A DNA stretch of 37,576 bases from Syntrophobacterales bacterium. GTDB taxonomy: Bacteria > Desulfobacterota > Syntrophia > Syntrophales > UBA2210. The stretch covers positions 1 through 37,576 of the forward strand of contig JAGGXJ010000059.1 of NCBI GenBank assembly GCA_021163105.1. Direction: 5' to 3'. Position numbers and translations under genes: made by a program. Under the pieces are notes generated by a model. That model worked only from the letters and a program-made list of their open reading frames with translations. It had not been told where the DNA came from and made no database searches. Below, piece after piece: positions 18,510 through 25,388 of the stretch; positions within the stretch are counted from its first letter, which is position 1; the number at the start of each line of letters is the position of its first letter.

Positions 18510-18932
18510 ATGTTAGCACCAAAGAGAGTAAAATATAGAAAGCTTCAGAAAGGCCGCATAAAAGGCCGTGCTCACAAGGGCATCAAAGTGGACTTCGGTG
18601 AATATGGACTTCAGGCAATGGGAAATGGCCGGATCACGGCACGGCAGATTGAGTCGGCTCGTATTGCGATAACTCGTCATGTCAGGCGTGGAGGCAAGAT
18701 ATGGATACGGATCTTTCCCCATAAGTCGGTAACAAAAAAACCGGCGGAAACCCGCATGGGAAAAGGGAAGGGATCTCCTGAAGAATGGGTTGCCATAGTC
18801 AAAAAGGGCATGGTTCTCTATGAAATGGAGGGAATTACGGAAGATGTTGCTCGCGAGGCATTGAGGTTGGCATCGCACAAACTTCCTGTTGCGACCAGAT
18901 TTCTTTCCAGGGAGATATTTGATGAGAATTAA
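18510..18932 (+). CDS. rplP: 50S ribosomal protein L16
   Basis: L16 (140 aa) helps position aminoacyl-tRNA in the A site and organises the peptidyl-transferase region. It begins [16 protein letters not shown] and contains [35 protein letters not shown]-type sequence. The [14 protein letters not shown] loop, whose neighbouring arginine (near E. coli R81) is hydroxylated in some bacteria, is intact. The last codons overlap the first 11 nt of rpmC, so L16 and L29 are translationally coupled. Confidence 0.98.
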
Positions 18933-19116
18933 AGAAGTTAGGGATCTCAGCGTTGATGAGTTAAAGGAAAAGGAGAAGAGTTTCATTGAAGAGCTTTTCA
19001 GACTTCGCGTCAGGTTTGCAACCGGGCAGTTGGAGTCTCCCTCTGTAATAAAAAGTGTAAAGAGGGATGTAGCTCGCGTGAAAACTGTTCTCAAGGAAAA
19101 GGGAGACCCGAGGTAA
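18922..19116 (+). CDS. rpmC: 50S ribosomal protein L29
   Basis: L29 (64 aa) is a two-helix hairpin protein by the exit tunnel next to L23. The sequence [19 protein letters not shown] and the motif [15 protein letters not shown] match the family. ATG 18922 is chosen over upstream codons because GGGAG inside the end of rplP is well placed and the family N-terminus begins here. It overlaps rplP by 11 nt, and rpsQ starts 1 nt after its stop. Confidence 0.95.
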
Positions 19117-19771: not shown

Positions 19772-19901
19772 GAGATTGGAATCTATCTCAGATGGATTTC
19801 GCAACCTGTTAATTGTTGAATAAAATTCAAGTGAACTTTAGGGGATATCTCCTTAAGGGGAGACCTTCTGCAAGGATTTTGTGATATTGGAGATGCAGCG
19901 A

Positions 19902-20213
19902 ATGCATATAAAGAAAAATGATACAGTAAAGGTAATAGCCGGCAGGGAAAAGGGAAAAACCGGTAAAGTACTCACTGTGATCAAAGACAAAAACCGTATT
20001 GTAATAGAGAAGATTAATCTGATAAAAAAACACCAGAGGCCCGACGCAACAGGTAAGGGCGGAATATTGGAAAAAGAAGCCCCACTCCATATATCCAATG
20101 TCATGCTTGTGTGTAACAAGTGTGATGCAGGCATAAGAATAGGACGCAAGGTACTTGAGGATGGCAAGAAGGTGCGTGTCTGTAAAAAGTGCGAAGAGTT
20201 GCTGGATGAATAA
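19902..20213 (+). CDS. rplX: 50S ribosomal protein L24
   Basis: L24 (103 aa) is an assembly-initiating 23S rRNA protein with a KOW motif. MHIKKNDTVKVIAGREKGK is the family N-terminus. The C-terminal half carries four cysteines in two pairs (CNKCDAG and CKKCEE), a zinc-ribbon-like arrangement seen in some but not all L24 proteins. ATG 19902 has GGAG 9 nt upstream (19889-19892). In-frame ATG 19893 and GTG 19881 are alternatives that would add three or seven residues. Confidence 0.93.
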   Translation: MHIKKNDTVKVIAGREKGKTGKVLTVIKDKNRIVIEKINLIKKHQRPDATGKGGILEKEAPLHISNVMLVCNKCDAGIRIGRKVLEDGKKVRVCKKCEELLDE

Positions 20214-20312
20214 AGGGATAGAAATTGGGTGCCTGACTGATCGGAATTAAAAGAGCTAAGGATCAAGAAAAGGTAAATCTGAGTTTCAAAGAGGGAAAGA
20301 CAGGAGGAAAAA

Positions 20313-20516
20313 ATGAGTGAGAAAGCAATAGAAACTATGAGCAAAGAAGAGCTTTTGGCCGAACGCCAGAAAATGGTAGAGCGGATCCTTGCAAGAGATG
20401 CAAAGGGAGAAGAAAAAGGAAGTCATGTAGACAACTCGCGGGGGAGTGCCGAATGGCAAGAAGCCGCAGCCCGGTTTCGTGAAATAGATGAACTGATATT
20501 TAAATCTAATAACTAG
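20313..20516 (+). CDS. Unrecognised 67-residue protein inserted between L24 and L5 genes
   Basis: I do not recognise this protein. It is 67 residues, highly charged and predicted helical. A first helix (about 9-30, KEELLAERQKMVERILARD) and a second (about 44-64, GSAEWQEAAARFREIDELIF) are joined by a polar G/S/N/D-rich linker. There is no cysteine, no signal peptide and no membrane segment. AGGAGG (20302-20307) sits 5 nt before ATG 20313, so translation looks efficient. It lies 99 nt after rplX and 33 nt before rplE, same strand, in a position normally occupied by nothing. Co-transcription with the spc genes is very likely. A ribosome- or assembly-linked role is only inference from context. 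Confidence 0.75.
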   Translation: MSEKAIETMSKEELLAERQKMVERILARDAKGEEKGSHVDNSRGSAEWQEAAARFREIDELIFKSNN

Positions 20517-20549
20517 AAATAATGTAGGATTAACGAGTGTGGATGACGG

Positions 20550-21089
20550 ATGGCCAGATTAAAGAAATATTATAAAGAAGAGGCAATGCCCTCACTGATC
20601 AAGGATCTTGGATATAAAAACCCTATGCAGGTTCCCAGGCTTGAAAAGATTGTGATTAATATGGGCTTGGGTGAGGCGATACAGAATATCAAGATACTTG
20701 ATAATGCCGTTTCCGAGCTTGCCATGATTGCGGGCCAGATGCCTGTTGTTACCAAAGCGCGCAAATCGATCGCCACTTTTAAACTGCGTAAAGGTATGCC
20801 AATAGGATGTATGGTGACCTTGAGACAAGAGAAAATGTACGAATTTTTTGACAGGCTTGTCAATGTTGCCGTCCCCAGGATCAGAGACTTCAGAGGGATT
20901 TCTCCGAAATCATTCGATGGCAGGGGAAATTTTTCTATGGGGATTAATGAACATTATATTTTCCCCGAGATCGATTATGATAAGATCGAAAAGGTTAAGG
21001 GGTTGAATATAACTATTGTCACGACGGCTGAAACAGACGACGAGGCAAGGCAGCTCTTGAAATTAATGGGTGTTCCATTTCGTAATTAG
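20550..21089 (+). CDS. rplE: 50S ribosomal protein L5
   Basis: L5 (179 aa) binds 5S rRNA and contacts P-site tRNA and S13 across the subunit bridge. The family blocks [62 protein letters not shown] and the C-terminal [19 protein letters not shown] are all present. Length is standard. The Shine-Dalgarno is weak (GGATGACGG). It follows the inserted 67-codon gene by 33 nt instead of rplX directly. Confidence 0.98.
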
Positions 21090-25211: not shown

Positions 25212-25388
25212 ATGATCATCCTGAAATCTCCCGAAGAGATTAGAAAAATGGGAGAAAACAACGCTGTTGTAGCGGAGATGTTGACCGGTTTAGCCGTTGC
25301 TGTGAGCAGGATTTCCGTGTCAGTCAGCCAGGCTGATAAAGGCAACAGAAGAATCTCTGTACAGGGGGATCTGGAGACAGGATTGTGA
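25212..25388 (+). pseudogene. map: Truncated methionine aminopeptidase remnant (map 5' end)
   Basis: A 58-codon frame starts MIILKSPEEIRKMGENNAVVAEML, which matches the N-terminal helix of type I methionine aminopeptidases (commonly MIxLKSxxEIxxMRxAxxIVAExL). Similarity fades by about residue 40 and a stop follows. All metal ligands and more than 200 catalytic residues are missing. It occupies the map position between secY and infA. It may still be translated from the operon, but cannot be an active peptidase, so a full-length map must exist elsewhere. Confidence 0.7.

Follow-up and report, generated by a model that had tools for sequence, protein, structure and literature searches.

In Archaea, the gene rps4e lies between rpl24 and rpl5. 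The locus described here likewise carries an additional gene at the L24-L5 junction, but the archaeal gene encodes eS4, a far larger ribosomal protein with recognizable domains, whereas the product of the present gene has none. With the orphan small genes of bacteria, this gene shares its short length, lack of a family, narrow range, moderate purifying selection, and what appears to be one recent gain, but unlike them it lies within the spc operon of ribosomal-protein genes, and the junction it occupies spans just 8 to 16 bp elsewhere in the family. In Escherichia coli, uS8 represses the spc operon at the rplE start (PMC10931766), which is where the insert studied here ends; however, that control point is an RNA operator bound by uS8, whereas the insert is a gene. 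Outside gamma-proteobacteria, regulation of spc has been described as unknown (PMC10931766).

The window analyzed here is the whole 37,576-nucleotide stretch of DNA, in which the rplX-rplE gap measures 336 bp (20214-20549). The gap and its flanking genes contain the following features:

19899..20213, + strand: rplX (ribosomal protein L24), 5' neighbor of the ORF (Pfam PF17136, 1.3e-27; KOW, 6e-9)
20214..20312, + strand: rplX-ORF spacer (three-carrier alignment: 72-76% identity between the window and the other carriers, with indels)
20302..20307, + strand: AGGAGG, the ORF Shine-Dalgarno (SD) site, 5 nt before the ATG (from the sequence; duplex energy -10.3 kcal/mol)
20313..20516, + strand: 67-codon orphan gene, predicted to encode an acidic helical-hairpin protein (ORF, same-site homologs, selection, structure model)
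20517..20549, + strand: ORF-rplE spacer of 33 nt, holding the weak rplE SD (anti-SD duplex energy -3.6 kcal/mol)
20550..21089, + strand: rplE (ribosomal protein L5), 3' neighbor of the ORF (Pfam PF00673, 2.5e-42; PF00281, 5.3e-29)

The 67-codon frame between rplX and rplE, with AGGAGG 5 nt before its ATG, can be read directly as the original prediction described it, and both neighbors are confirmed by Pfam. The gene had been placed at 20214-20549, where it is indeed present, but that range is the entire rplX-rplE gap and the ORF proper occupies 20313-20516. Its 67-aa product in the window (MSEKAIETMSKEELLAERQKMVERILARDAKGEEKGSHVDNSRGSAEWQEAAARFREIDELIFKSNN) is acidic, as are those of the other carriers (net charge -1 to -3, pI 5.1-5.8). 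Comparisons with Pfam, NCBIfam, PHROGs, and PDB sequences returned no family and no significant match, in agreement with the earlier view that the product belongs to no recognized family; 2 PDB sequence matches, to an IF-2 N-domain (E 1.1) and a kinase (E 1.9), were taken as chance. Assembly-helper, regulator, and hibernation-factor families, looked for in the same 4 collections, were not matched either.

The ORF is present at the same rplX-rplE site in 2 further lineages, with protein identities of 78-79% to the window copy, and every homolog found keeps this position. One copy (79% identical) resides in G005 (JAFDAI010000001.1, MAG Deltaproteobacteria bacterium AB_1215_Bin_93) and the other (78% identical) on a 5.4-kb contig, JAUVKS010000143.1 (G061:C1; L042/L048), of MAG CSMAG_486. 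Because the ribosomal proteins of this contig are mostly 89-97% identical to those of the window and the MAG has a second, different rplE (75% identical to that of the window, as in other members of its assigned family), the contig is most likely mis-binned contamination whose true place is near the genus of the window. The comparative case consists of 3 ORF sequences, 2 of them close and one on this probably mis-binned contig. The carriers are a few related sediment bacteria that form a subclade of one uncultured deltaproteobacterial genus.

In 2-6% of dinucleotide shuffles of the gap, a frame of 67 or more codons arose on the + strand, so the window genome taken by itself is weak evidence, barely above chance, and the proof of coding rests on the other 2 carriers. 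Across the 3 carriers, the ORF contains no indels and no stops, whereas indels occur in the spacer upstream of it, which is also less identical. Differences between the window and the other 2 copies are distributed over the codon positions as 9/9/16 and 11/9/16, and dN/dS values (NG86) for the 3 pairs are 0.148/0.402, 0.157/0.431, and 0.038/0.137, corresponding to ratios of about 0.28-0.37. In neutral simulations (the same counts of transitions and transversions placed at random, 5000 runs), about 44 and 43 of the 67 residues remained identical in the 2 distant pairs, compared with 53 and 52 observed; at most 1 of the 5000 runs (a fraction of at most 0.0002) reached the observed identity, and 68-70% of the runs gained a stop. 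The close pair alone is weaker in this respect (fraction 0.027). Among the 6 frames, that of the ORF shows the highest conservation in both distant pairs, closely followed by one antisense frame that contains stops, and the ORF frame scores highest for codon usage in all 3 carriers. An antisense frame that is open in all 3 carriers was dismissed as a gene, its translation being conserved no further than the neutral level. Residues 36-48 (GSHVDNSRGSAEW), which form a 13-residue loop, are invariant in the 3 carriers despite codon differences, making this polar loop the best-conserved part of the product according to both model and comparison. The neighboring ribosomal proteins are more tightly constrained (dN/dS 0.04-0.11), and the constraint on the ORF is therefore real but moderate. 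Comparison of the 3 copies shows, at the level of sequence, a genuine protein-coding gene kept by moderate purifying selection rather than a chance frame. The original prediction had taken the absence of homologs under purifying selection as the mark of a chance frame; homologs were found, and they carry the dN/dS ratios given above.

The original prediction further held that the L24-L5 junction is highly conserved and that an extra coding gene there is unusual. In 4 congeners (G001, G002, G004, and G006) and 11 other family members, the junction spans 8-16 bp without an ORF (G003 and G017 gave no rplE and are not part of this count), and 29 of 32 additional, more distant loci from the order and phylum have gaps of at most 45 bp. 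Conservation thus holds for most relatives but not for L064, L071, and L073, with gaps of 195, 88, and 179 bp, which appear to be non-coding. With the junction short in nearly all relatives and apparently non-coding in the longer exceptions, the second claim stands: apparently non-coding insertions occur elsewhere, and it is the conserved coding insert that is unusual. The insertion in L064 (1306-1500), whose host belongs to another family of the phylum, is a repeat-like, apparently non-coding sequence of 195 bp, most of which is missing from its congener L065.

In a five-protein tree, the 3 carriers form one clade (support 100/99). Because the carriers are one clade and the 15 close relatives have junctions of 8-16 bp, a single recent gain in the ancestor of a small subclade suffices, on this comparison, to explain the distribution. 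The search for a source of the gene yielded none: the genome of the window has no second copy of the ORF, and 155 genomes from the order and class and 395 sampled across the phylum gave nothing beyond chance-level partial matches. The weak phylum-level matches (E 7e-4 to 0.05) were partial, several with stops and in unrelated contexts, and were judged to be chance. Short-pattern scans of viral and GTDB contigs, which reach close relatives only, recovered just the 2 known carriers, and nothing convincing emerged among plasmids and phages. A mobile or repeat origin of the insert was rejected, as there are no other copies and just short weak repeats around it. Across the genomes searched and the pattern scans reaching close relatives, homologs are confined to a narrow clade, and the frame is under purifying selection in 3 lineages; by these comparisons, the ORF is a taxonomically restricted orphan gene. 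Within 19800-20650 of the window, the closest-relative pattern of rplX and the ORF departs from that of the flanking genes: in the rplX-ORF segment, G005 is nearest to the G061 contig (92-94%, versus 78-89% to the window), and most flanking segments differ from this. Such a pattern suggests either that lineages have recombined here or that the window copy has changed faster.

The ORF SD in the window shows the second strongest predicted anti-SD pairing among 22 operon starts, and those of the other 2 carriers reach -7.8 kcal/mol. Conversely, the rplE SD is predicted at -3.6 kcal/mol in the carriers versus -5.7 to -8.6 kcal/mol in congeners without the ORF. Given the weak rplE SD and the strong ORF SD, L5 translation in the carriers may partly depend on ribosomes finishing the ORF; the 33-nt gap between the two genes is long for strict translational coupling. 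A hairpin hiding the rplE start was not consistently seen in the carriers, and promoter and terminator scans remained at chance level. A structured RNA in the insert was also rejected, with no Rfam match, fold z-scores of mixed sign, and no common fold at the rplE start.

The rplN-rplX spacer (19772-19898 of the window) measures 127 bp in the window and G005 versus 33 bp in the 4 congeners, a difference of about 95 nt, and holds a palindrome, GGGGATATCTCC in the window and GGGAATATTCCC in G005, which changes in step between the two. The palindrome is lost in the third carrier through a 26-nt deletion, and the long spacer is not carrier-specific because other genomes have spacers of 90-165 nt. 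Between secY and infA (25212-25388), map (methionine aminopeptidase) is reduced in the window to a 58-codon scar, which matches the longer gene of G005, G002, and G006 over 27 N-terminal residues and a short C-terminal piece. G001 likewise lacks map between secY and infA, and 2 other M24-family genes are located elsewhere in the genome of the window.

Structure prediction of the product alone (AlphaFold2, three-sequence alignment; mean pLDDT 76, pTM 0.54) placed helices at residues 3-7, 11-34, and 46-66, consistent with the two-helix shape with a linker proposed from the sequence. In size, and perhaps in fold (the model shows a short N-terminal helix followed by a two-helix hairpin), the product resembles uL29 (rpmC, PF00831), and uL29 chains were the top Foldseek matches in the PDB (TM 0.6-0.75, E 0.4 or worse), with VIA-align Z-scores of up to 8.7 over 61-63 residues, nearly the whole chain, a score too low to be discriminating for helical proteins. 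As a calibration, the uL29 encoded by the window's rpmC (single-sequence model) gave E 2.4e-3 and TM 0.88, and viral helical hairpins matched the ORF model at TM of about 0.7 with E-values similar to those of uL29. In sequence, PF00831 did not match the product at E up to 10, a uL29 HMM (49 fetched sequences plus E. coli) scored the 3 copies at 2.8, -1.1, and -1.1 bits, within the range of shuffles, and hhalign gave a probability of 1%, with a weak resemblance in the N-terminal stretch (P 0.052). In global alignment to uL29, 4-7% of shuffles equaled the window copy, a borderline result, and the other 2 copies showed no similarity; DNA similarity between the ORF and rpmC was absent. The rpmC product is basic (net charge +5, pI 9.9), opposite to the acidic ORF product, in which the motif of the basic rRNA-binding surface of uL29 (RRDIAR-type second helix, GQL loop) is absent; moreover, a normal rpmC is present at 18925-19116. 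Given the lack of sequence support, the opposite charge, and the nearly equal matches of viral hairpins, we regard uL29 as a likeness in predicted shape, not a relationship, and do not call the ORF L29. A diverged uL29 paralog, arising either by duplication of rpmC, located about 1.2 kb upstream, or by import of a uL29-like gene, would account for the top-ranking folds and the N-terminal resemblance but is very improbable, the more so as the gain is recent (rplE dS to congeners 0.5-1.0) and a local duplicate would still be recognizable unless under strong positive selection. Nor does the predicted uL29-like shape discriminate among the proposals of an assembly helper, a regulator, or a hibernation factor.

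The reading that we favor, with some confidence, is that of a real, restricted gene, gained once and selected, which most likely encodes an accessory protein made together with ribosomal proteins. On the comparative evidence, the ancestor of a small subclade acquired the gene at the rplX-rplE junction, and moderate purifying selection has kept it since. From its position, orientation, and strong SD, we infer that the gene is presumably part of the spc mRNA and translated alongside the ribosomal proteins encoded there. The product, predicted to be a small acidic helical hairpin, would act as an accessory protein made in step with the ribosomal proteins, its conserved loop perhaps binding a basic partner, for example a ribosomal protein in free form or a subunit under assembly, and translation of the ORF may also help to deliver ribosomes to rplE. 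We offer this mechanism, partner binding through the loop with possible ribosome delivery, only tentatively, as what ties the product to the ribosome is its genomic address. A narrower version, in which a lineage-specific acidic, uL29-shaped large-subunit accessory would be made together with L24 and L5 and would chaperone, mimic, or restrain a ribosomal protein or an intermediate of assembly, appears improbable.

A real gene whose role is unrelated to the ribosome, settled in the spc operon for constant strong expression, is rather unlikely, although no ribosome-related family was matched and a narrow distribution with moderate constraint fits any orphan gene; what speaks against it is nothing direct, just the address and the acidic charge, which favor a ribosomal partner. 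If instead the peptide mattered little and the act of translating the frame delivered ribosomes to rplE or set the L5 level, the weak rplE SD in all 3 carriers, stronger in the ORF-less congeners, and the strong ORF SD would be explained, but not the protein conservation in excess of the neutral expectation, including the invariant 13-residue loop; the 33-nt gap and the lack of a consistent hairpin over the rplE start also argue against such a role, which we consider a poor candidate. Least probable of all is an open frame that arose by chance in inserted non-coding DNA: non-coding insertions exist at this junction in other lineages and gap shuffles occasionally yield a frame of this length, but hardly one kept free of stops and indels in 3 lineages, with dN/dS below 1 and the neutral-simulation fractions obtained for the 2 distant pairs.

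This locus is a clear example of a new gene that entered an operon ranking among the most conserved and was retained under selection. What is unusual is the location of the gene; the system itself is not of a new kind. The locus shows one place in which an orphan gene can establish itself, and the gene may change L5 translation in the carrier clade. If the product binds ribosomes, it would represent a lineage-specific addition to a near-universal machine.
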